From: Megasphaera stantonii
Lineage (GTDB): Bacteria; Bacillota; Negativicutes; Veillonellales; Megasphaeraceae
Reading direction: 5' to 3'
Assembly: GCF_003367905.1 (NCBI RefSeq)
Contig: NZ_CP029462.1
Span: 2,356,001 to 2,420,000, forward strand
DNA: 64,000 nucleotides
How positions within the stretch are numbered: position 1 is the first letter of the stretch; each line of letters begins with the position of its first letter. Position numbers and translations under genes: made by a program. Below, in pieces: positions 3,922 through 38,427 of the stretch. Under the pieces are notes generated by a model. The model worked only from the letters and a program-made list of their open reading frames with translations. It had not been told where the DNA came from and did not search any database.

Positions 3922-4914
3922 ATGATAACTGTAATTATTCCTACTAATAGATTCGAGTGTTTGAAGGTAATATTTGAAAAGTGCATTAATTTATATAAAG
4001 GAACTTTATTTAAATTTGCAGTACATGATAGTAGTGAAGACAATGATATTAAAAACTTATGTTTACAATATTGCAAAACAAAGAAATGTAATTTGCAGTA
4101 TTATCAATATAATCCCTCTTTATCTGTTGACATTAAAGCGATAAATGCTATAAAAACGATTAACTCTGATTATTTTTGGCTTTTTGGAGATGGTAATTTA
4201 GTCAACTTTAATGAGATGGAGCAATTGTTAATTTCTAATGATTTTATGCGATATGATGTTTTAAATATAGATACTTTAGATCGTAGAGGCTATTTAGGGC
4301 AAGATAAGGAAAAATGTGCAAATTATATATATGCATATGAAAAACCTGTAGAGTATGCAAGAAAATATTTTTCTAGATTAACTTATTGGGGTTCTGCTAT
4401 TATTAGGACTAAATATTATAATTGTATATTTTCTGAAAATATAATTGATAAATATGTTGATAATCAAATACCTTGGTGGATTGCATGTTCAATTTTTGAA
4501 GCTATTGCATATTGGAATGAAAAGAATATTAGATCTATTTTGGGCGTGGTTTATACTGATTGTATTTCATATAATCCAGCTAAAAAAGATCATTGGTGGA
4601 CACAAGATGAAAAATATTACTTTTATGTATTCACTAAATTTAATCAAGGAATAAATTTATTACCTAAGATATATAGTTCAGAAAGAAAAACAATAATCTG
4701 TTTTTTTAGAAATGATGCATTGGTTAGCAATAGCTATTTATTATATTTGCGTAGTATAGGGACTCTTAATAGAATCTTTGTAAAAAAGTATAAAAGTGAA
4801 ATAGTAGTAGTAGATGGATTTTATTATAAAATGCTATTTTTTTGCTGTATTCCACAAACGATAGCGGTTATTGGAAATAGATTAAAATACATAATAAAAA
4901 AATTTTTTAGTTAA
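3922..4914 (+). CDS. Glycosyltransferase, GT2-like
   Basis: About 330 residues, beginning M-I-T-V-I-I-P-T-N-R, a family 2 N-terminus. The metal-binding region reads W-L-F-G-D-G-N, a variant of D-x-D seen in some GT2 proteins, and the protein ends in a hydrophobic, basic tail. The start ATG 3922 is chosen because GGAGG at 3912-3916, inside the end of the preceding gene, fits it; a longer frame from 3898 would overlap that gene more. The codon use is very AT-rich, like its neighbours. The sugar specificity cannot be told. Confidence 0.75.
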   Translation: MITVIIPTNRFECLKVIFEKCINLYKGTLFKFAVHDSSEDNDIKNLCLQYCKTKKCNLQYYQYNPSLSVDIKAINAIKTINSDYFWLFGDGNLVNFNEMEQLLISNDFMRYDVLNIDTLDRRGYLGQDKEKCANYIYAYEKPVEYARKYFSRLTYWGSAIIRTKYYNCIFSENIIDKYVDNQIPWWIACSIFEAIAYWNEKNIRSILGVVYTDCISYNPAKKDHWWTQDEKYYFYVFTKFNQGINLLPKIYSSERKTIICFFRNDALVSNSYLLYLRSIGTLNRIFVKKYKSEIVVVDGFYYKMLFFCCIPQTIAVIGNRLKYIIKKFFS

Positions 4915-5047
4915 ATGTAAATTGTTTATGAAAGGAGATCAGTAATGAAAGTTGTTCTTTTAGCAGGAGGTTTTGGAACTCGTATTTCAGAGGAAAGCCA
5001 GTTTAAACCTAAACCTATGATTGAAATTGGAGGCATGCCTATTTTAT

Positions 5048-6149
5048 GGGGCGAATTGTCAAGCTAAGTGCAACTTTTTAGAGTAATGTACTTCGTATGG
5101 CGTTTTGTATCCTAAACATTTTCGGGGACGGCGATTTAGTTCTGCAAAAACAGCTTGCACATAGGCTTCTGGAACGAGTGTGATGTCCGTCCCTTTCGGG
5201 AAATACTCTCGGACTAGGCCATTGGTATTTTCGTTGCTTCCCCGCTGCCAGGGCTGATGCGGCGGCGGGAAATAAAACGGCACGCCGTTCAAGGCCTCCG
5301 TGACAGCGGCATGATGGGCGAACTCTTTTCCTCTGTCCGGCGTAAGGCTTTTTACAGGTTGCCCTTGCAGTACCTGAAGCAATACCGTATTGACGGCTTG
5401 TGCTGTCTTTTTGGCTGCTTTGCCTCCTACCAGATACCGGCTCTTTCTATCTACCAACGTAACCAGACAGGCTTTTCCTGTCTTTCCTGCTATGGTATCA
5501 CATTCCCAATGTCCTCGCCGGGAGCGGTTAGCGGCTCCTGCTGGCCGTTCCGAAATATCGTGAGAGATGGGAATAGAACCCCGTCGTTCCTGATATTGCC
5601 GGGTATGCCGGGATTTTCCATGATGCCGCAAGCGGCGGACCGCACCGCGGGACCCATGGGAGGACGACGTTTCATCAAACATACCGGCATATATGGCGCG
5701 GTAAATCGTTGCATAGCTAAGGAGTGCCTTCTGATGTTCCAGCTGCAAGCGTCCGGCAATTTCTTCTGGGGACCAATGATGCACCAGGAAGAGATTTTTA
5801 ACCAATGCGAATAGCTCGGCATTCTCTAACCGCTTGTGAGGCTTGCATGCCTTACGGCGGCGGGCATACTGTTGTTGTGCGGTGATGGGCAGATACTTGC
5901 CGTTCACTGTATTTCTGCGTAGTTCCCGTGAGATCGTGGATTTATCTCGGCCGAGGGCCGCCGCAATTCGAGAGATAGAATAGGACTGCGCGCGAAAAAA
6001 GAGTAGATTTTCTCGTTCAGATAGAGTAAGATGATGATAGTGGCACATAGGTTTCCTCCGAGATATAGATTTTGTTTGGTAGCATTATTATATCAGAAAC
6101 CTATGTGTCATTTTTTATAGGTGTTGCACTTGTATTGTAAATTCGCCGG
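5048..6149 (-). mobile_element. IS30-family insertion sequence, copy 1, inside rfbF
   Basis: The element spans 5050-6147 (1098 bp). Its ends begin GGCGAATT on both strands and share GTGCAAC at the inner side, giving imperfect 25-bp terminal inverted repeats. It is flanked by the 2-bp duplication GG (5048-5049 and 6148-6149). Copies 2 and 3 in this window encode the same transposase, residue for residue, so spread is recent. The right end may form a hybrid promoter with flanking DNA: TTGTAT at 6130-6135 and TATTAT at 6152-6157, spaced by 16 bases, pointing into the rest of the cluster. Confidence 0.97.
5059..6048 (-). CDS. IS30-family transposase, copy 1
   Basis: A 329-residue DDE transposase. 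The N-terminus holds the IS30 helix-turn-helix with [19 protein letters not shown]. The catalytic acidic residues lie in [17 protein letters not shown] and [12 protein letters not shown]. It fills nearly the whole element, ending nine bases from the left terminus side. The same protein is encoded at 14530 and 31990. Confidence 0.97.
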
Positions 6150-14430: not shown

Positions 14431-15530
14431 GGCGAATTTACAATACAAGTGCAACACCTATAAAAAATGACACATAGGTTTCTGATATAATAATGCTACC
14501 AAACAAAATCTATATCTCGGAGGAAACCTATGTGCCACTATCATCATCTTACTCTATCTGAACGAGAAAATCTACTCTTTTTTCGCGCGCAGTCCTATTC
14601 TATCTCTCGAATTGCGGCGGCCCTCGGCCGAGATAAATCCACGATCTCACGGGAACTACGCAGAAATACAGTGAACGGCAAGTATCTGCCCATCACCGCA
14701 CAACAACAGTATGCCCGCCGCCGTAAGGCATGCAAGCCTCACAAGCGGTTAGAGAATGCCGAGCTATTCGCATTGGTTAAAAATCTCTTCCTGGTGCATC
14801 ATTGGTCCCCAGAAGAAATTGCCGGACGCTTGCAGCTGGAACATCAGAAGGCACTCCTTAGCTATGCAACGATTTACCGCGCCATATATGCCGGTATGTT
14901 TGATGAAACGTCGTCCTCCCATGGGTCCCGCGGTGCGGTCCGCCGCTTGCGGCATCATGGAAAATCCCGGCATACCCGGCAATATCAGGAACGACGGGGT
15001 TCTATTCCCATCTCTCACGATATTTCGGAACGGCCAGCAGGAGCCGCTAACCGCTCCCGGCGAGGACATTGGGAATGTGATACCATAGCAGGAAAGACAG
15101 GAAAAGCCTGTCTGGTTACGTTGGTAGATAGAAAGAGCCGGTATCTGGTAGGAGGCAAAGCAGCCAAAAAGACAGCACAAGCCGTCAATACGGTATTGCT
15201 TCAGGTACTGCAAGGGCAACCTGTAAAAAGCCTTACGCCGGACAGAGGAAAAGAGTTCGCCCATCATGCCGCTGTCACGGAGGCCTTGAACGGCGTGCCG
15301 TTTTATTTCCCGCCGCCGCATCAGCCCTGGCAGCGGGGAAGCAACGAAAATACCAATGGCCTAGTCCGAGAGTATTTCCCGAAAGGGACGGACATCACAC
15401 TCGTTCCAGAAGCCTATGTGCAAGCTGTTTTTGCAGAACTAAATCGCCGTCCCCGAAAATGTTTAGGATACAAAACGCCATACGAAGTACATTACTCTAA
15501 AAAGTTGCACTTAGCTTGACAATTCGCCAT
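14429..15530 (+). mobile_element. IS30-family insertion sequence, copy 2
   Basis: The element spans 14431-15528, again 1098 bp, in the opposite orientation to copies 1 and 3, and is flanked by the 2-bp duplication AT (14429-14430 and 15529-15530). Together with copy 1 it brackets 8.3 kb that hold rfbG to glf in inverted orientation, so recombination between them would flip that block. Confidence 0.97.
14530..15519 (+). CDS. IS30-family transposase, copy 2
   Basis: It encodes the same 329 residues as the transposase at 5059. The start ATG has GGAGG at 14518-14522, upstream by seven bases. The helix-turn-helix and DDE motifs are intact, so the copy looks able to move. Confidence 0.97.
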   Translation: MCHYHHLTLSERENLLFFRAQSYSISRIAAALGRDKSTISRELRRNTVNGKYLPITAQQQYARRRKACKPHKRLENAELFALVKNLFLVHHWSPEEIAGRLQLEHQKALLSYATIYRAIYAGMFDETSSSHGSRGAVRRLRHHGKSRHTRQYQERRGSIPISHDISERPAGAANRSRRGHWECDTIAGKTGKACLVTLVDRKSRYLVGGKAAKKTAQAVNTVLLQVLQGQPVKSLTPDRGKEFAHHAAVTEALNGVPFYFPPPHQPWQRGSNENTNGLVREYFPKGTDITLVPEAYVQAVFAELNRRPRKCLGYKTPYEVHYSKKLHLA

Positions 15531-25853: not shown

Positions 25854-27161
25854 ATGAAATCAAAAGTATTCGCATCCTTAGCGGCCGTTATGGCAGTCAG
25901 CGCGACTTGCGCCTTTGCGGCCAATCCCTTTGTTGACGTACCGACAGATAGCTGGGCCTACAAATCGGTCGTAGAATTAGCTGACGCCGGCGTCATTCAG
26001 GGCGTCGACGGCCAGTACTTCCAGGGCCAGCGCAGCATTACCCGCTATGAAGCGGCGGAAATGGTAGCTAAAGCGATGGCTCATATGGATAAGGCGTCGG
26101 TGGAACAGCGGGCCCTTATCAACAAGCTTGCCGATGAATATGCCGACGAGCTGAACAACCTCGGCGTCCGCGTGTCGAATCTAGAAAACCGCGTCGGCAA
26201 TATTAAATTCAGCGGCGACGCCCGCGTTCGCTTCCAGCACAGCAGTGATGCCGGCTTGAAAAATGATGATGCCTGGGATTACCGTATTCGCCTCCGCGGC
26301 GTAGCCCAGGTCAATGACCGTACGACGGCGACAGTGGGCATCAGTACAGGTGACGTAAGCTTTGGCGGCAACGGCGCGGCCAGTGAAAATGCCGACGTAT
26401 TTGCCGATGACATCAAAATCGATTACAATTTCGGCAGCCCGAACTGGAATTTGAGCTTGGGTCGCACGGATACGTACGTCCTCGGCGGCGAGAACGCCTA
26501 TGGCTACCAATACGGCGACGTATTTGACCGGGCCGAATTGAAATACCAGAACGATTCCTTTGCCGTAACGGCTGGCTACGGTAAATTTAAGGAAGGCGAC
26601 ATCGCCGGCGACAGCGAACTGACATTGGACGGTGTAAAGACCGGCTACGGTGAAATCGAAGGATTCTTCGGCAACGGCTCGGCTGTCGGCGTATACTACA
26701 ATGATTTCTCTACTGCCGGAGGAAGCGACCGGACAGCTGCCGATTATTATGACGTCGACGATCTGTGGGGCGCTTATGCCAGCGTAAATGTCGGTTCGAA
26801 ATGGAATCTTTTAGCAAACTACGAAAGCATCAGCCGTGATAAATCAGATGACAGTGTCAGCGATCCGAAGGTCTGGATTGGAAAGGTTACCTATGGATCG
26901 GTCAGCGAAGAACAGAAAGGCTCTTGGGATGCCTGGTTAGAATATATCGACGCGGAAAAAGGAGCACTTATTGGCGGGGCGACGAACTCCTGGCGCGACG
27001 ACAGTGTTCTCAACGGCGTTACCTCGTGGGGCGTCGGATTTGATTATGCCGTAGGCAAAAACGTAGTGTTGACAGTAGGACAAACCTTTGGTACTGAAGG
27101 CAAAAACGGCTTGAAAGACCCTGACGAATTTACCGATATAGAGTTAAATTTCTTCTTCTAA
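25854..27161 (+). CDS. ompM: SLH-domain outer-membrane porin, OmpM type, copy 1
   Basis: 435 residues. A signal peptide (cleavage near A-F-A-A-N-P) is followed by one SLH domain (about residues 24-85: N-P-F-V-D-V-P-T-D-S-W-A-Y, then I-T-R-Y-E-A-A-E-M-V), a coiled coil (about 85-120) and a beta-barrel ending in Phe (L-N-F-F-F). In Negativicutes this architecture tethers the outer membrane to peptidoglycan and makes a porin; the SLH domain binds decorated peptidoglycan. It has its own promoter, leader and terminator. The barrel contains repeated aromatic strands such as G-Y-G-K-F-K-E-G. It is the most diverged of the four clustered copies at the ribosome site. Confidence 0.95.
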   Translation: MKSKVFASLAAVMAVSATCAFAANPFVDVPTDSWAYKSVVELADAGVIQGVDGQYFQGQRSITRYEAAEMVAKAMAHMDKASVEQRALINKLADEYADELNNLGVRVSNLENRVGNIKFSGDARVRFQHSSDAGLKNDDAWDYRIRLRGVAQVNDRTTATVGISTGDVSFGGNGAASENADVFADDIKIDYNFGSPNWNLSLGRTDTYVLGGENAYGYQYGDVFDRAELKYQNDSFAVTAGYGKFKEGDIAGDSELTLDGVKTGYGEIEGFFGNGSAVGVYYNDFSTAGGSDRTAADYYDVDDLWGAYASVNVGSKWNLLANYESISRDKSDDSVSDPKVWIGKVTYGSVSEEQKGSWDAWLEYIDAEKGALIGGATNSWRDDSVLNGVTSWGVGFDYAVGKNVVLTVGQTFGTEGKNGLKDPDEFTDIELNFFF

Positions 27162-27506: not shown

Positions 27507-28826
27507 ATGAAATCCAAAGTATTAGCATCTGTAGCAGCACTGATGGCTGTAGGCGCGACCTGCGCCTTTGCGGCCAATCCCTTCGTCGACGTACCGACAG
27601 ACAGCTGGGCTTACAAATCTGTTGTAGAATTGGCCGATGCCGGCATTATTCAGGGCGTCGACGGTCAATATTTCCAGGGCGAACGCAACATTACCCGTTA
27701 TGAAGCTGCTGAAATGGTAGCGAAAGCCATGGCTCACATGGACCGGGCAACGGTGGAACAGCGGGCTCTCATCAACAAATTGGCTGACGAATACGCCGAC
27801 GAATTGAACAACCTCGGCGTCCGCGTATCGAACCTCGAAAACAAAGTCGGCAACATCAAATTTACTGGCGACGCTCGTCTCCGTTATCGCTATCAGGATG
27901 GCAATAAAGATAACGACAGTTCTTGGGATTATCGTATCCGCCTTCGCGGCAAAGCGCAGATCAATGACCGCATGACGGCTACATTGGGCATCAGCACTGA
28001 TAACCAGAGCTTTGCTGACAATGGTAAAGCTAGCGAGGAAAGTGATATTTTTGCCGACGATATCAAAGTCGATTACAATACCAAGTCCTTTGGCCTCAGC
28101 CTCGGCCGTACGGATAAGTATAAAATCGGTGGCCCCCGCGGCTACGGTTATGCATACGGCGATGTATTTGACCGCGTAGAAGCGCAGTTCCGCGGCGATA
28201 AATTCGCTGTAACGGCTGGCTATGGTAAATTTAAAGAAGGCAATACGGCTGGCAAAGTAGACGGCGGATGGCGTAATGGCAAGGAGGTTGACATTAACGG
28301 CGTAAAAACTGGCTATGCGGAAATCGAAGGCTTCTTTGGCAATGGTTCGGCTGCCGGCGTATACTATAATGACTTCAATGCAACCGGCGACGGTGTAGTC
28401 GGCGACTTTAACGCCGATGACCTCTGGGGCGCTTATGCTAGCGTAAACTTCGGCTCCAAATGGAACCTCCTGGCTCAGTATGAAAACACCAGCCTCGAAA
28501 CCGCTTCGAAGGTTACGAACGATGACAGTGCTAACATGTTTATCGGTCGCTTGATGTATGGCAAGACTAGCATGTCGACGCCGAAATCCTGGGACATCTG
28601 GGTTGAATACCTTGACGCCGAAGACGGCGCTGATATCGGCGGTTCGACGGACTCTTGGAGATTTGGACAGATGGATAACATCACCTCCTGGGGCGCCGGT
28701 ATTGATTATGTCTTCGCTAAAAATGCGAAGTTCAGCGTTATGCAGTCCTTTGCTTCGGATATCAAAGACGGCAACGATTCCGATCCGGAAGAACAGACCC
28801 GCGCAGAATTTACCTTTGCATTCTAA
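27507..28826 (+). CDS. ompM: SLH-domain outer-membrane porin, OmpM type, copy 2
   Basis: 439 residues with the same order: signal peptide, SLH domain, coiled coil, barrel, terminal Phe (E-F-T-F-A-F). The SLH domain is nearly identical to copy 1, while the barrel differs in loop lengths, for example the insert with K-V-D-G-G-W-R-N-G-K. The M-S-T-P-K-S-W-D-I-W-V-E-Y strand is shared with copies 3 and 4. Differences confined to loops fit selection by phages or immunity, or different pore preference; this is inference. Confidence 0.95.
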   Translation: MKSKVLASVAALMAVGATCAFAANPFVDVPTDSWAYKSVVELADAGIIQGVDGQYFQGERNITRYEAAEMVAKAMAHMDRATVEQRALINKLADEYADELNNLGVRVSNLENKVGNIKFTGDARLRYRYQDGNKDNDSSWDYRIRLRGKAQINDRMTATLGISTDNQSFADNGKASEESDIFADDIKVDYNTKSFGLSLGRTDKYKIGGPRGYGYAYGDVFDRVEAQFRGDKFAVTAGYGKFKEGNTAGKVDGGWRNGKEVDINGVKTGYAEIEGFFGNGSAAGVYYNDFNATGDGVVGDFNADDLWGAYASVNFGSKWNLLAQYENTSLETASKVTNDDSANMFIGRLMYGKTSMSTPKSWDIWVEYLDAEDGADIGGSTDSWRFGQMDNITSWGAGIDYVFAKNAKFSVMQSFASDIKDGNDSDPEEQTRAEFTFAF

Positions 28827-29771: not shown

Positions 29772-31118
29772 ATGAAAGCAAAAGTTTTAGCAGCATTGGC
29801 AGCAACAATGGCAGTAAGCGCAACGTGTGCATTCGCAGCTAACCCGTTTGTCGACGTACCGACGGATAGCTGGGCATACAAATCCGTAGTAGAATTGGCT
29901 GACGCCGGTATCATTCAGGGCGTTGATGGCGAATACTTCCAGGGCCAGCGCAACATTACCCGTTATGAAGCCGCTGAAATGGTAGCCAAAGCTATGGCAC
30001 ACATGGACAAAGCATCTGTTGAACAGCGCGCTTTGATCAACAAATTGGCCGATGAATATGCTGACGAACTGAACAACCTCGGCGTTCGCGTATCGAACCT
30101 CGAAAACAAAGTCGGCAACATCAAATTCACTGGCGACGCTCGTCTCCGTTATCGGTATATGCATGGCAGTGAAGGCAAAGAAAATGATAATTCTTGGGAT
30201 TATCGTATTCGCCTTCGCGGGCAGGCTCAGGTCAACGACCGTACGACTGTAACGGTAGGTTTGACGACTGATAACCAGAATTTTGGTTCTAATGGGACAA
30301 CAACTGATACTAACGAAGACGGTGATGTATTTGCAGACATCATTAATGTAGATTACAACTTCGGCAGCCCGAACTGGAAGCTCAGCCTCGGTCGTGAAGC
30401 CGGATGGATGCTCGGTGGTCCTCGTTCTTATGGCTATCAGTACGGTGATGTATTTGACCGTGCTCAGTTACAATATAGCAATGATAAGTTTGCTGTAACA
30501 GCTGGTTATGGTAAATTTAAAGAAGCTGACGCCTTCTTTGCTGGCGATGCTGATTTAGATGGTGTTAAAACTGGCTATGGCATGATTGAAGGTTTCTTTG
30601 GCAATGGTTCGGCTGTAGGGGTATATTATAATGATTTTACTCGTGCAGGTGGCGAAGGTCGTTTAAATGGAGATGCAACTGAGTATCTCGATGCTGACGA
30701 TCTCTGGGGTGCATATGCTAGTGTAAACATTGGCTCTAAATGGAATATTCTTGCTAACTATGAAAAAGTTAGTAAAGATGGAGTTAGCATGAATACTGAC
30801 AAAGATGTAAATGATCCGGAAGTTTGGATTGGAAAAGTAACTTATGGTAAAGCTATTATGGCTCAACCGAAATCTTGGGATATCTGGGTTGAATACCTTG
30901 ATGCGGAAGACGGTGCATTCCTCGGCGGTTCCACGAACTCCTGGAGATTTGGCCAGATGGATAACATTACCTCTTGGGGCGCAGGTGTCGATTATGTATT
31001 TGCTAAAAATGCAATGTTCAGTGTAATGCAGTCCTTTGCAACAGATACAAAACGTTCTCAGGATGACTCTTATGCTGATAAAGAACAGACTCGTGCTCAG
31101 TTCGTATTCGCATTCTAA
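29772..31118 (+). CDS. ompM: SLH-domain outer-membrane porin, OmpM type, copy 3
   Basis: 448 residues: signal peptide ending A-F-A-A-N-P, SLH domain, coiled coil, barrel, terminal Phe (Q-F-V-F-A-F). The first 120 residues are almost the same as copy 4, including the signal peptide K-A-K-V-L-A-A-L-A-A-T-M, while barrel loops differ. It has a strong promoter and the best ribosome-site-sequestering leader. Terminator follows at 31141. Confidence 0.95.
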   Translation: MKAKVLAALAATMAVSATCAFAANPFVDVPTDSWAYKSVVELADAGIIQGVDGEYFQGQRNITRYEAAEMVAKAMAHMDKASVEQRALINKLADEYADELNNLGVRVSNLENKVGNIKFTGDARLRYRYMHGSEGKENDNSWDYRIRLRGQAQVNDRTTVTVGLTTDNQNFGSNGTTTDTNEDGDVFADIINVDYNFGSPNWKLSLGREAGWMLGGPRSYGYQYGDVFDRAQLQYSNDKFAVTAGYGKFKEADAFFAGDADLDGVKTGYGMIEGFFGNGSAVGVYYNDFTRAGGEGRLNGDATEYLDADDLWGAYASVNIGSKWNILANYEKVSKDGVSMNTDKDVNDPEVWIGKVTYGKAIMAQPKSWDIWVEYLDAEDGAFLGGSTNSWRFGQMDNITSWGAGVDYVFAKNAMFSVMQSFATDTKRSQDDSYADKEQTRAQFVFAF

Positions 31119-31978: not shown

Positions 31979-33080
31979 GGGGCGAATTGTCAAGCTAAGT
32001 GCAACTTTTTAGAGTAATGTACTTCGTATGGCGTTTTGTATCCTAAACATTTTCGGGGACGGCGATTTAGTTCTGCAAAAACAGCTTGCACATAGGCTTC
32101 TGGAACGAGTGTGATGTCCGTCCCTTTCGGGAAATACTCTCGGACTAGGCCATTGGTATTTTCGTTGCTTCCCCGCTGCCAGGGCTGATGCGGCGGCGGG
32201 AAATAAAACGGCACGCCGTTCAAGGCCTCCGTGACAGCGGCATGATGGGCGAACTCTTTTCCTCTGTCCGGCGTAAGGCTTTTTACAGGTTGCCCTTGCA
32301 GTACCTGAAGCAATACCGTATTGACGGCTTGTGCTGTCTTTTTGGCTGCTTTGCCTCCTACCAGATACCGGCTCTTTCTATCTACCAACGTAACCAGACA
32401 GGCTTTTCCTGTCTTTCCTGCTATGGTATCACATTCCCAATGTCCTCGCCGGGAGCGGTTAGCGGCTCCTGCTGGCCGTTCCGAAATATCGTGAGAGATG
32501 GGAATAGAACCCCGTCGTTCCTGATATTGCCGGGTATGCCGGGATTTTCCATGATGCCGCAAGCGGCGGACCGCACCGCGGGACCCATGGGAGGACGACG
32601 TTTCATCAAACATACCGGCATATATGGCGCGGTAAATCGTTGCATAGCTAAGGAGTGCCTTCTGATGTTCCAGCTGCAAGCGTCCGGCAATTTCTTCTGG
32701 GGACCAATGATGCACCAGGAAGAGATTTTTAACCAATGCGAATAGCTCGGCATTCTCTAACCGCTTGTGAGGCTTGCATGCCTTACGGCGGCGGGCATAC
32801 TGTTGTTGTGCGGTGATGGGCAGATACTTGCCGTTCACTGTATTTCTGCGTAGTTCCCGTGAGATCGTGGATTTATCTCGGCCGAGGGCCGCCGCAATTC
32901 GAGAGATAGAATAGGACTGCGCGCGAAAAAAGAGTAGATTTTCTCGTTCAGATAGAGTAAGATGATGATAGTGGCACATAGGTTTCCTCCGAGATATAGA
33001 TTTTGTTTGGTAGCATTATTATATCAGAAACCTATGTGTCATTTTTTATAGGTGTTGCACTTGTATTGTAAATTCGCCGG
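31979..33080 (-). mobile_element. IS30-family insertion sequence, copy 3
   Basis: The element spans 31981-33078 (1098 bp), orientation as copy 1, with the target duplication GG at 31979-31980 and 33079-33080. It sits in the promoter spacer of ompM copy 4. The end facing that gene carries TTGCAC (20 bases from TAAAAT) and TTGTAT (14 bases), both badly spaced as new -35 boxes. Confidence 0.97.
31990..32979 (-). CDS. IS30-family transposase, copy 3
   Basis: It encodes the same 329 residues as the transposases at 5059 and 14530, with intact DNA-binding and DDE motifs. It is transcribed away from ompM copy 4. Confidence 0.97.
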   Translation of the reverse strand: MCHYHHLTLSERENLLFFRAQSYSISRIAAALGRDKSTISRELRRNTVNGKYLPITAQQQYARRRKACKPHKRLENAELFALVKNLFLVHHWSPEEIAGRLQLEHQKALLSYATIYRAIYAGMFDETSSSHGSRGAVRRLRHHGKSRHTRQYQERRGSIPISHDISERPAGAANRSRRGHWECDTIAGKTGKACLVTLVDRKSRYLVGGKAAKKTAQAVNTVLLQVLQGQPVKSLTPDRGKEFAHHAAVTEALNGVPFYFPPPHQPWQRGSNENTNGLVREYFPKGTDITLVPEAYVQAVFAELNRRPRKCLGYKTPYEVHYSKKLHLA

Positions 33081-33278: not shown

Positions 33279-34655
33279 ATGAAAGCAAAAGTATTAGCAG
33301 CATTGGCAGCAACGATGGCAGTAAGCGCAACGTGTGCATTCGCAGCTAATCCGTTTGTCGATGTACCGACGGATAGCTGGGCATACAAGTCCGTAGTAGA
33401 ATTGGCTGACGCAGGCGTTATCCAAGGCGTAGACGGCGAATACTTCCAGGGTCAGCGCAACATTACTCGTTATGAAGCCGCTGAAATGGTAGCAAAAGCT
33501 ATGGCACACATGGATAAAGCTTCCGTTGAGCAGCGCGCTTTGATTAACAAATTGGCTGACGAATATGCTGATGAATTGAACAACCTCGGCGTTCGCGTAT
33601 CGAATCTCGAAAACAAAGTCGGCAACATTAAATTTACCGGCGATGCTCGTCTCCGTTATCGTTATCGTCATGGTGACTCTACTAAGGAAAATGATAACTC
33701 TTGGGATTATCGTATCCGTCTCCGTGGCCAAGCGCAGGTCAATGACCGTGTTACGGCTACAGTAGGTTTGTCTACAGATAATCAGAATTTTGGTCATAAT
33801 GGCACAACGACTGACACTAATAAAGATGGTGATGTATACGCTGATATCATTAAAGTTGACTACAATTTCGGCAGCCCGAATTGGAATCTTAGTCTCGGTC
33901 GTGACGCTGCATATTTCCTTGGCGGTGCTCGTTCTTATGCTTATCAATATGGCGATACCTTCGATCGTGCTGAATTGAAGTATAACAATGGTAAAGTTGC
34001 TGTAACGGCTGGTTATGGTAAATTTAAAGAAAATGCAGGTAATGACTTTGCAGAAGGCACAACTGCCGGTATGAAGGTTGCTGGTTATGAGGACATGGAT
34101 GGATTGAAGACCGGCTATGGCGAGATCGAAGCTTTCTTTGGTAATGATTCGGCTGCAGGCGTATACTACAACCAGTTCAGCCGTGCGGGTGGTGCTAATG
34201 ATACGGTAGTTGATGCTGATGCTGATAATTTGTGGGGTGCTTATGCAAGCATCAACCTTGGTTCTAAGTGGAATATCTTGGCTAACTACGAAAGTGTTGA
34301 TAGAGATTTCAGCTCTACGACTGGCAATGCAGTAAGTGATCCGCAAGTATGGATTGGCAAGGTTACGTATGGCAAAGCTGTTATGGCTCAGCCGAAATCT
34401 TGGGACATCTGGGTTGAATACATCGATGCTGAAGACGGTGCATTCCTCGGTGGTTCGACAGGCTCTTGGAGAAACTTCGGTCTGATGGATAATATGACGT
34501 CTTGGGGCGTAGGTATCGACTACGTATTCGCTAAAAATGCTAAATTCAGCGTTATGCAGTCCTTTGCTACTGACGTTAAAGACCATGCAAGTGATGGTGT
34601 TTCTGGTCAGAATGATGAAGAAATCACTCGCGCAGAATTCAACTTCGCATTCTAA
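33279..34655 (+). CDS. ompM: SLH-domain outer-membrane porin, OmpM type, copy 4
   Basis: 458 residues, the longest of the cluster. The order is signal peptide, SLH domain (D-V-P-T-D-S-W-A-Y-K-S-V), coiled coil with L-N-N-L-G-V-R-V-S-N-L-E, then the barrel ending E-F-N-F-A-F. The N-terminal third is almost that of copy 3. Its original promoter is cut by IS30, so expression is probably changed or lost unless a new promoter, such as TACAAT at 33146-33151, is used. Confidence 0.95.
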   Translation: MKAKVLAALAATMAVSATCAFAANPFVDVPTDSWAYKSVVELADAGVIQGVDGEYFQGQRNITRYEAAEMVAKAMAHMDKASVEQRALINKLADEYADELNNLGVRVSNLENKVGNIKFTGDARLRYRYRHGDSTKENDNSWDYRIRLRGQAQVNDRVTATVGLSTDNQNFGHNGTTTDTNKDGDVYADIIKVDYNFGSPNWNLSLGRDAAYFLGGARSYAYQYGDTFDRAELKYNNGKVAVTAGYGKFKENAGNDFAEGTTAGMKVAGYEDMDGLKTGYGEIEAFFGNDSAAGVYYNQFSRAGGANDTVVDADADNLWGAYASINLGSKWNILANYESVDRDFSSTTGNAVSDPQVWIGKVTYGKAVMAQPKSWDIWVEYIDAEDGAFLGGSTGSWRNFGLMDNMTSWGVGIDYVFAKNAKFSVMQSFATDVKDHASDGVSGQNDEEITRAEFNFAF

Positions 34656-34723: not shown

Positions 34724-34752
34724 TTGAATTTTGCCGCCAATATTGATACTAT
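34724..34752 (+). promoter_or_regulatory. Promoter of the first AAA/PD-(D/E)XK gene
   Basis: TTGAAT at 34724-34729 and TACTAT at 34747-34752, spacer 17. The surrounding 35 bases recur before the second paralogue (36480-36508). Confidence 0.55.
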
Positions 34753-34830: not shown

Positions 34831-36402
34831 ATGGGAATCTATTTAAATCCAGGCAGCGATAAATTCCAAGAAGCGCTGCGTTCTGCTATATATGTAGATA
34901 AAAGCAGTATGATTGCCTATACAAATCGTATATTCAAATCATCCAATAAGTATATCTGCGTCAGCCGACCCCGGCGATTCGGAAAATCCATGGCGGCTAA
35001 TATGTTGTCGGCATATTACGACAGGACTGTAGACGGCAGCAGGGTGTTTCGGGGATTAAATATTACTGACGATGCGGATTTTGATACGTATCGGAATCAA
35101 TGTGATGTGTTATTCCTCAACATGCAGGAATTTTTGAGCCGAAGCATGGATATGGCTTCTATGTTGGATTTGTTGAAACGGCGAATTTTGCATGACGTAC
35201 TGCGGGAATATCCTGATGTGGAATATTTTGACAGAGCTGATATGATAGGCTGTTTGGGTGATGTATATGCTGAAACGAATTGTCCATTTGTCGTCATTAT
35301 CGACGAATGGGACTGCATTTTCCGTGAATACCGAAACGATTACCAGGCTCAGCGGCAGTATTTGGATTTCCTGCGCGACTGGCTCAAGGACAAGGCCTAC
35401 ATTGGCTTGGCTTATATGACGGGGATACTGCCTATCAAAAAGTACGGAACCCATTCGGCGCTGAATATGTTTACGGAGTTTTCCATGACCAATCCGCGGG
35501 AGCTGATGCCGTTTGTAGGTTTTACGGCTGAAGAAGTTCGGAATTTGTGCGAACAGTACCATATGGATTATGAAGAAACCATGAGCTGGTATGATGGATA
35601 CCAATTTCGAGATATGACGTCTATATGCAATCCCCGCTCTGTCGCATCGGCGATGGAAAGCGGTATATTAGATACGTACTGGACGGAAACGGAAACCTTT
35701 GAAGCGCTGAAAGTCTATATCGACATGAACTTCTCCGGCCTGCGGGATACCATCGTCAGGCTCATGGCCGGGGGACGGCAGAAAATCGATACGAGGTCTT
35801 TCGTCAATGACATGACGACCTTCCATTCGGCCGACGATGTGTTGACCTTACTTGTTCATTTGGGGTATTTAGGCTATGATTTTGATACGAAGGAAGTTTT
35901 CATTCCCAATCGGGAAATCATGGGCGAATACGTGACGGCGACGCGCGTATCCCAATGGTCGGAAATCGTTCATTCCGTGCTGCAGTCGGACAGGCTTTTA
36001 CAGGCTACATGGAACGGCGACGAAGAAGCCGTAGCGAAAGGCCTTGAAGAAGCGCACTTGCATACGTCTCATCTGCAGTATAACGACGAAAATGCCTTGA
36101 GCTATACCGTCTCACTGGCCTATTACAGCGCGCGGCAGTACTATACGATTATCCGCGAACTGCCGACGGGCAAAGGCTTTGCCGACATGGCATTTCTTCC
36201 AAAGAAAAAATACGCCGACAAGCCGGCTATGATCGTGGAACTGAAATGGGATGGTACTGCCGACACGGCATTGCGGCAAATACGGGATAAACACTGTACG
36301 GAGGCTTTGAAGGATTACAAAGGAAATATCTTCTGCGTCGGCATTACGTATGACAGAGGCAGCAAAAAGCATACCTGCCGTATAGAAACAGAAACCATGT
36401 AA
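34831..36402 (+). CDS. AAA-ATPase-like / PD-(D/E)XK nuclease-like protein, paralogue 1
   Basis: 523 residues. The N-terminal AAA-ATPase-like domain has I-Y-V-D-K-S and the P-loop variant R-P-R-R-F-G-K-S near residue 53, with a Walker B-like V-V-I-I-D-E-W-D near 155. The C-terminal part is a PD-(D/E)XK nuclease-superfamily domain with V-E-L-K-W-D (core E-x-K) near residue 470 and G-K-G-F-A-D-M before it. Such proteins are abundant in gut Firmicutes and Bacteroidetes, with unproven function; links to mobile DNA or defence are proposed. Ribosome site GGAGG is near ATG 34831. Confidence 0.88.
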   Translation: MGIYLNPGSDKFQEALRSAIYVDKSSMIAYTNRIFKSSNKYICVSRPRRFGKSMAANMLSAYYDRTVDGSRVFRGLNITDDADFDTYRNQCDVLFLNMQEFLSRSMDMASMLDLLKRRILHDVLREYPDVEYFDRADMIGCLGDVYAETNCPFVVIIDEWDCIFREYRNDYQAQRQYLDFLRDWLKDKAYIGLAYMTGILPIKKYGTHSALNMFTEFSMTNPRELMPFVGFTAEEVRNLCEQYHMDYEETMSWYDGYQFRDMTSICNPRSVASAMESGILDTYWTETETFEALKVYIDMNFSGLRDTIVRLMAGGRQKIDTRSFVNDMTTFHSADDVLTLLVHLGYLGYDFDTKEVFIPNREIMGEYVTATRVSQWSEIVHSVLQSDRLLQATWNGDEEAVAKGLEEAHLHTSHLQYNDENALSYTVSLAYYSARQYYTIIRELPTGKGFADMAFLPKKKYADKPAMIVELKWDGTADTALRQIRDKHCTEALKDYKGNIFCVGITYDRGSKKHTCRIETETM

Positions 36403-36423
36403 TATGGGGTAGAAATCGGTTAG

Positions 36424-36464
36424 AAGCAATGACAGGAGGAGTATTCTGAGTGTCATTGCTTTTT
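36424..36464 (+). terminator. Terminator of paralogue 1
   Basis: AAGCAATGACA pairs with TGTCATTGCTT, followed by T residues. Confidence 0.85.
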
Positions 36465-36479
36465 CATGCCATACCGTCG

Positions 36480-36508
36480 TTGAATTTTGCCGCTGATGCT
36501 GATACTAT
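36480..36508 (+). promoter_or_regulatory. Promoter of the second AAA/PD-(D/E)XK gene
   Basis: TTGAAT at 36480-36485 and TACTAT at 36503-36508, spacer 17, duplicated from the region before paralogue 1. Confidence 0.55.
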
Positions 36509-36584
36509 ATACATATATTATGTACGCAATATGAAGTATGTCGGTTAACGTACTCGTAACCAATGTCATAACGGGAGGACGACC

Positions 36585-38156
36585 ATGGGTATTTATTTGA
36601 ATCCGGGAGACAGGAAATTTAAAATGGCGCGAAACAGCCGCATATATGTCGATAAAAGCGGTCTGATTCGGTATCTGAATTCGGTTTTTGATACGGAGAG
36701 CCGGTTTATCTGCGTCAGCCGTCCCAGGCGATTCGGCAAGTCTATGGCGGCCAATATGATATCAGCGTATTATGACCGAACTGTAGACGGTGAGGCTGCT
36801 TTTCAGGGATTAGAGATCGCTGGCGATGCGGCGTTTGCTATGTATTGCAACCAGTGCGATGTTTTATTTATTAATATGCAGGAATTTTTGAGTTGCAGTC
36901 AGACCATGAAAGATATGTTGGATTTGCTGAAGCAAAAAATACTGCATGATGTATTGCGGGAATATTCCCATATCTCTTATTTTGATCGTACGGATATGGT
37001 TGGGTGTTTGGACGATGTTTTTGTAGAAACGCAGCGTCCTTTTGTCGTCATTATTGACGAATGGGACTGCATCTTCCGCGAATACCGAAACGATTATCAG
37101 GCCCAGCGGCAGTATCTGGATTTCCTGCGTGGCTGGCTCAAGGACAAAGCCTATATCGGCTTGGCCTATATGACGGGGATACTGCCTATCAAAAAGTATG
37201 GGACCCATTCGGCGCTGAATATGTTTACGGAGTTTTCCATGACCAATCCGCGGGAGCTAACGCCGTTTGTAGGCTTTACGGCAGAAGAAGTTCGGAAATT
37301 GTGCGAACAGTATCATATGGATTATGAAGAAACCATGAGCTGGTATGATGGATACCAATTTCGAGATATGACGTCTATATGCAATCCCCGCTCGGTCGTA
37401 TCGGCGATGGAAAGCGGTATATTAGATACGTACTGGACGGAAACGGAGACCTTTGAAGCGTTGAAAATTTATATCGACATGAACTTCTCAGGTCTGCGGG
37501 ATACCGTTGTCAAGCTCATGGCCGGCGGGCGGCAGAAAATCGACACGCGGTCCTTTGTCAACGATATGACGACCTTCCATTCGGCTGACGACGTGCTGAC
37601 CTTGCTCGTTCATTTGGGGTATTTAGGCTATGACTTCGATACGAAGGAAGTCTTTATTCCTAATCGGGAAATCATGGGCGAATACGTAACAGCGACGCGG
37701 GTGTCCCAGTGGTCAGAAATTATTCATTCCGTGCTGCAGTCGGATAAGCTTCTCCAGGCTACGTGGAACGGCGACGAAGAAGCCGTAGCGAAAGGCATGG
37801 AGGAAGCGCACTTGAATACGTCCCATCTGCAATATAACGATGAAAATGCGTTGAGCTATACCGTCTCGCTGGCCTACTACAGCGCAAGGCAGTACTATAC
37901 GGTTATCCGCGAACTGCCGACGGGCAAAGGCTTTGCCGACATGGCATTTCTGCCGAAGAAAAAATATGCCGACAAGCCGGCTATGGTCGTGGAACTGAAA
38001 TGGGATAGCACTGCCGATACGGCGCTTCGGCAAATACGGGATAAACAGTATACGGGGGCTTTGCAGGATTACACAGGAAATATCCTATGTGTCGGCATTA
38101 CGTATGACCGAGGAAGCAAGAAGCATACCTGCCGTATAGAAAAAGAAACAACATAA
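36585..38156 (+). CDS. AAA-ATPase-like / PD-(D/E)XK nuclease-like protein, paralogue 2
   Basis: 523 residues, the same length and architecture as the gene before it. The first 150 residues differ at many places (for example D-R-K-F-K-M-A-R against S-D-K-F-Q-E-A-L), yet from V-V-I-I-D-E-W-D-C-I-F-R onward the two proteins are nearly identical. This mosaic is best explained by gene conversion after tandem duplication, or by selection for divergence of the ATPase half. The P-loop R-F-G-K-S and the E-L-K-W nuclease core are intact. Confidence 0.88.
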   Translation: MGIYLNPGDRKFKMARNSRIYVDKSGLIRYLNSVFDTESRFICVSRPRRFGKSMAANMISAYYDRTVDGEAAFQGLEIAGDAAFAMYCNQCDVLFINMQEFLSCSQTMKDMLDLLKQKILHDVLREYSHISYFDRTDMVGCLDDVFVETQRPFVVIIDEWDCIFREYRNDYQAQRQYLDFLRGWLKDKAYIGLAYMTGILPIKKYGTHSALNMFTEFSMTNPRELTPFVGFTAEEVRKLCEQYHMDYEETMSWYDGYQFRDMTSICNPRSVVSAMESGILDTYWTETETFEALKIYIDMNFSGLRDTVVKLMAGGRQKIDTRSFVNDMTTFHSADDVLTLLVHLGYLGYDFDTKEVFIPNREIMGEYVTATRVSQWSEIIHSVLQSDKLLQATWNGDEEAVAKGMEEAHLNTSHLQYNDENALSYTVSLAYYSARQYYTVIRELPTGKGFADMAFLPKKKYADKPAMVVELKWDSTADTALRQIRDKQYTGALQDYTGNILCVGITYDRGSKKHTCRIEKETT

Positions 38157-38176
38157 TATCATATAAATATATTTAG

Positions 38177-38219
38177 AAGCAATGGCAAGGGAGTATGTCT
38201 CATTAAGTCATTGCTTTTT
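38177..38219 (+). terminator. Terminator of paralogue 2
   Basis: AAGCAATG pairs with CATTGCTT, followed by T residues. Confidence 0.75.
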
Positions 38220-38427
38220 CTTTTGCCAGAAAAAATGAAACGGCATGTTTTGAAGGGTGCGACTACGGAGCACATTGCTCGATATGGCTGAAAACTCGGG
38301 GAGAGAATGAAATTTTTGTCCCATTCAGAGTCGGGCCGATGGTGCAATTTATGTAGTGTATAAGCGGCAAATATGCTATAATACAATATGATAAAAGCGT
38401 ATTAAGTACGGTTTGAGGAGTCGCAGC

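Follow-up and report, generated by a model that had tools for sequence, protein, structure and literature searches.

A tandem pair of DUF1703 genes in Megasphaera stantonii, a mosaic of ages probably left by gene conversion

The gene pair and its identity step

How do two neighbouring genes of the same length come to agree closely over their last two thirds and much less over their first 150 codons? Two such genes lie in a 64,000-nucleotide stretch of the Megasphaera stantonii genome (contig NZ_CP029462.1; hereafter the window): gene A at 34,831-36,402 and gene B at 36,585-38,156, both on the forward strand, separated by 182 bases and each encoding 523 amino acids, with the length, coordinates and strand that a sequence-only reading of this DNA had given them. 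A Pfam profile search found an AAA-ATPase_like domain (PF09820; 87.8 and 84.6 bits in A and B, cut-off 26.1) and a PDDEXK_9 domain (PF08011; 39.2 and 38.8 bits, cut-off 25.5) in both, which is the combination given for DUF1703 in the available text of Knizewski et al. (2007, PMC1913061). The genome is a single contig of 2.65 Mb, and counting the family in it, as that reading had proposed, gave three PF09820 genes: A, B, and a far copy at 28% identity.

We compared A and B gapless, codon by codon. In the front (codons 1-150) they share 307 of 450 nucleotides (68%) and 101 of 150 amino acids (67%); in the back (codons 151-523) they share 1017 of 1119 nucleotides (91%) and 350 of 373 amino acids (94%). 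The best single change-point in the codon-aligned DNA identity (68% vs 91%) is at residue 153, with a log-likelihood gain of 58.3; both this gain and the gap between C- and N-terminal identity are the largest in 7875 pairwise comparisons within a set of 126 distinct full-length family members, retained from the top 80 of 450 related stretches and from loci of other genomes. With same-residue codons only, the change-point lies at codon 141, and none of 200 permutations matched it. The sequence-only reading had thus placed a sharp boundary correctly, although its wording, of fronts that differ widely and of backs nearly identical also at the DNA level, is slightly strong for 67% amino acid and 91% nucleotide identity.

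Synonymous divergence in the pair and in the family

Synonymous divergence, which that reading had proposed to follow site by site, is not even along the pair but steps. When a codon model was fitted by profiling over a grid, with kappa fixed at 2, 3 or 4, the front dS was 1.75, 2.25, and 3.0, respectively (intervals 1.25-4, where 4 is the top of the grid), values that are rough, being near saturation, and the back dS was 0.30-0.35. Equal dS in the two parts was rejected (2dlnL of 41.1, 43.9, and 47.9), also when codons 1-40 were left out (28.0-32.1), and simple synonymous counts agree with this step. The back is itself patchy: dS is 0.40 in codons 151-210, 0.15 in 211-300, 0.60-0.65 in 301-360, and 0.35 in 361-523, and an even dS within the back was rejected (2dlnL 12.5-12.9, 3 df).

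The ratio omega behaves differently, being 0.09-0.14 in the front and 0.08-0.09 in the back, with no significant difference between the two parts of A/B (equal-omega 2dlnL 0.8); the front is under purifying selection. Since dS steps and omega is alike on both sides, the step is one of age, as expected from gene conversion, and not of selection. Selection for divergence of the N-terminal domain had been one of two causes offered by the sequence-only reading; in its full form, the front would be a module that sets specificity and is under diversifying selection, and recombination would have no part in the pattern. We regard this as very improbable: the low omega on both sides, together with a step that is present at synonymous sites too, rules out diversifying selection as the cause of the A/B boundary and refutes it as a sole cause. 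In a model built by AlphaFold2 from an alignment of 50 sequences (mean pLDDT 87.2), moreover, the step at 150-153 follows a helix (138-149) and lies just before the Walker B strand (153-158), that is, inside the predicted nucleotide-binding fold, so that it marks no domain border. A weaker form of the claim stands, namely that, family-wide, residues 1-150 are more diverse or under weaker constraint, with a mean protein identity of 0.50 in the front and 0.61 in the back (3625 cross-genome pairs); this lower conservation of the front in protein adds to the visible step between A and B.

For controls we hand-picked 24 family pairs, mostly for moderate divergence, and took a 2dlnL over 6.6 as significant. 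Equal dS was rejected in six of the 24, A/B included. The front was older in three (A/B, L099/L042, and the tandem pair of L097) and the back was older in the other three (L045/L050, L005/L006, and L144/L145). Equal omega was rejected in eight of the 24, and all eight had the higher omega in the front, which is the other observation that speaks for selection on this part. Single-copy orthologues of the same genus were compared too: G009 against G012 and G013 had a dS of 0.85 in both parts (2dlnL 0.0, vs 41-48 for the step inside A/B) and, in the front, an omega two- to threefold that of the back (2dlnL 9.0 and 8.5), and G012 against G013 had an uneven dS of 0.15 in the front and 0.25 in the back (2dlnL 7.8). 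Together, the hand-picked pairs and the orthologues indicate two effects: recombination can take place at any point along the gene, and the protein sequence evolves faster in its front.

These comparisons also bear on whether an uneven mutation rate or a constraint on codon usage might have lowered the back dS with no conversion at all. In both genes GC3 rises at the boundary (from 0.43 to 0.60 in A and from 0.48 to 0.60 in B, ranks 1 and 8 of 126), which would favour such a constraint, but the even dS of G009 against G012 and G013, the lower front dS of G012 against G013, and the opposite polarity of other pairs all oppose it, and we consider this the least probable of the alternatives, with next to no chance of being right. 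The GC3 rise is an independent, modest sign that the back of A/B has a separate history; it would be expected from GC-biased conversion, and equally from a donor of higher GC.

Synonymous change-points were sought in 216 pairs with more than 68% DNA identity, skipping those with fewer than 150 same-residue codons. In the 15 clearest listed pairs (at most two of 200 permutations as good), the breakpoints were spread over codons 21 to 498. At the DNA level, change-points across the family frequently fall at 148-157; given the scatter of the synonymous breakpoints, this recurrence at 153 looks like an effect of constraint, and we rejected a recombination hot spot at this residue.

Other members of the family have histories of their own. 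Clostridia bacterium MS499-83 (L097) carries a second tandem pair of near full-length copies, at 438-2054 and 3953-5572, in which the front is older (dS 0.95 vs 0.45, 2dlnL 12.1); in the 34 genomes that were positive among 380 Negativicutes no further adjacent pair was found, with at most three candidates scored per genome, which makes this count a lower bound. L099 and L042, from two Selenomonas-type genomes, have a DNA identity of 77% before codon 412 and 98% after it, a break that is a very recent recombination between genomes. Large expansions, with 10 to 17 gene matches per genome at E 1e-60, occur in four genomes (G070, G071, G067, and G065), where truncated and stop-bearing copies are mixed with full-length ones, as under rapid gain and loss. 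In two Selenomonas-type genomes a tRNA-Gly gene (L022 3852-3925 and L028 3859-3932) is followed, after about 70 bases, by the start of a DUF1703 gene; a tRNA gene was present in four of the 40 loci scanned.

Origin of the pair

We consider it probable that an old duplication placed two whole cassettes in tandem and that gene conversion between A and B later acted on the back. The other cause that the sequence-only reading had offered, conversion of the C-terminal two thirds, agrees with this and is supported by the step in dS at the boundary, by an omega that shows no such step, and by the patchy dS of the back. The even dS of G009 against G012 and G013, the recombination seen in other pairs, and the published recombination within DUF1703 all count for conversion. 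An entire DUF1703 cassette of promoter, gene, and terminator would have been duplicated long ago, and homologous recombination between the direct copies would then have homogenised codons from about 151 to 523 (35,281-36,399 in A, 37,035-38,153 in B), probably in several episodes of differing age, the youngest part being codons 211-300. Codons 1-150 and the flanks would retain the old divergence, which is seen in codons 46-150 (34,966-35,280 in A, 36,720-37,034 in B; 75 of 105 amino acids shared), and the sharp step would be a mosaic of ages under ordinary purifying selection. We infer from the whole pattern that the donor of the back was the other copy, and likewise the order of these events.

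The flanks fit this history. The DNA upstream of A and B has diverged, yet one 37-bp stretch is 89% identical, with a promoter-like element, TTGAAT-17-TACTAT, at 34,724-34,752 before A and 36,480-36,508 before B. Its 15-mer has no further exact match in the genome, and a promoter common to the whole family was rejected, because among 125 upstream stretches only three poor, loose matches were found apart from those of A and B. Similar terminator-like hairpins with a T run follow both genes (36,423-36,465 and 38,176-38,220), and a tree built on residues 1-150 joins A and B as sister branches (support 98/97 among 126 rows, the bootstrap being not fully settled). Sister fronts, a common promoter-like stretch, and similar hairpins are what an old duplication of the whole cassette would leave.

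The main rival is a recent duplication of the whole gene, followed in one copy by replacement of the 5′ third through recombination with a diverged homologue from another strain or species. It would yield the same dS step, and foreign copies may arrive, since the family is patchy in the genus: close copies were found in 3 of 14 other genomes, one each, at 56-58% identity. In two of these three genomes, G009 and G013, the family gene has beside it none of the 12 further genes of the window that were tested, and this lack of common neighbours indicates that the family probably moves horizontally; nor did the 8-8.5 kb regions of four same-genus genomes contain an A/B-like gene near a glycosyltransferase resembling the one downstream of B. 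Nevertheless, we judge a 5′ replacement unlikely, though with a real chance of being right. Over residues 46-150, A has its closest relative in B and B in A (0.71, with runners-up at 0.61 for A and 0.57 for B), and the tree of the front groups them too; their flanks have diverged like the front and still carry an element found before no other copy; and a single replacement leaves the uneven age of the C-terminal part unexplained.

One observation in favour of replacement is that the first 45 residues of A and B resemble different relatives. Here A (34,831-34,965) is nearest to L052 (0.71) and B (36,585-36,719) to L036 (0.78), and the two share only 26 of 45 residues with each other; in 18 of 20 further loci, several of them repeated genes, this part is closer to B than to A. 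A site test on B gave a best candidate with p 2.6e-7 and p below 0.01 for 61 of 124 candidates, and the same test on A gave a best p of 1.4e-4 and 9 of 124. The 20 control tests (10 hand-picked pairs, both ways) reached a smallest p of 3.3e-4, with at most two candidates under 0.01. With only 45 sites to go on, the comparison suggests a second breakpoint of A/B, left by an exchange close to the conserved Walker A region; alternatively, A itself may have changed fast there. Under the duplication and conversion that we prefer, an additional exchange of this kind, no later than about codon 45, would probably have given the two front ends their different types. A family-wide division into two discrete front types was rejected, because identities over residues 1-43 form a single broad hump.

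Predicted fold, known systems, and neighbourhood

All 50 aligned rows keep the Walker A motif RPRRFGK (47-52, with S45-R46), D158-E159, and the nuclease residues D452, E470, and K472 unchanged. A and B resemble the rest of DUF1703 in having both Pfam domains above cut-off and the unusual Walker A RPRRFGKS reported for this family in the available text of PMC1913061; they do not differ from it in architecture, and only their tandem, partly homogenised state sets them apart. A search of the PDB by sequence gave no match up to E 1. By structure, VIA-align 2 placed the model closest to the archaeal ATPases PABY2304 (2qen; Z 15.6, rmsd 4.3, 286 aligned) and SSO1545 (2fna; Z 14.9, rmsd 4.3, 276 aligned), which superpose on model residues of about 10-369, followed by plant NLRs and CED-4 (Z of about 13-14) and, lower, Avs3 (Z 10.3); the comparison covers model residues of about 1-435 and is a likeness of fold, which does not show function. 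STAND NTPases, to which CED-4, plant NLRs, and Avs3 belong, have a fold of nucleotide-binding, helical and winged-helix domains and carry C-terminal sensor repeats (TPR, WD, LRR, and the like). A and B have no predicted sensor repeats: their Pfam domains are the ATPase and the nuclease only, the last part of the model is a nuclease-like alpha/beta region, and, at about 12% sequence identity to the archaeal and STAND proteins, they differ from these also in that a nuclease domain follows the ATPase.

By their predicted fold, A and B would be archaeal/STAND-like ATPases with a nuclease tail. The likeliest way of working is that a nucleotide-dependent switch lets the putative nuclease domain cut. 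We tentatively propose, at rather less than an even chance, a nucleotide-switched NTPase of this kind with a C-terminal PD-(D/E)XK domain that cleaves nucleic acid and might act against mobile DNA. A role in such defence is guesswork and gets no backing from PADLOC, which returned a single row at chance level for A (E 0.021) and none for B; NCBIfam likewise returned chance-level rows only. A long shot is that DUF1703 fronts (1-45 and 46-150, around Walker A) are exchangeable and set the trigger of the ATPase, and that recombination keeps the nuclease half uniform, so that tandem copies would amount to a limited set of sensors sharing one effector.

Recombination among the DUF1703 paralogues of one genome is already known. 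In Cardinium cCpun, according to the available text of PMC6387759, 25 divergent paralogues recombine within the gene, as A and B probably do, but without apparent homogenisation, whereas A and B are a tandem pair with a homogenised back. The A/B mosaic is an ordinary kind of gene-family recombination, and it adds a tandem, partly homogenised example in a bacterial group other than that of Cardinium. It provides a clear case, in a complete genome, of partial homogenisation of tandem DUF1703 copies with the step in synonymous age measured, in a widespread gene family that is common in gut bacteria. It is also a warning that the conserved-back, variable-front look of such pairs stems largely from recombination; the faster front in same-genus orthologues is a pointer to where an interaction surface might lie.

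Upstream of A lie four SLH-domain (porin) genes and an IS30-like transposase, and downstream of B lie glycosyltransferase and O-antigen-ligase genes. The four SLH-domain genes, of outer-membrane type and consecutive (25,854-27,161, 27,507-28,826, 29,772-31,118, and 33,279-34,655, forward strand), are 69-79% identical in DNA and make a second tandem family of the region, a candidate for testing mosaic age. The IS30-like element is present in three copies in the window (5,059-6,048, reverse strand; 14,530-15,519, forward strand; and 31,990-32,979, reverse strand), one of them about 1.9 kb 5′ of gene A, each with a transposase of 329 amino acids (HTH_38 and rve); the copies are identical or 99.9% identical across about 1.1 kb, which indicates that the element was recently active.
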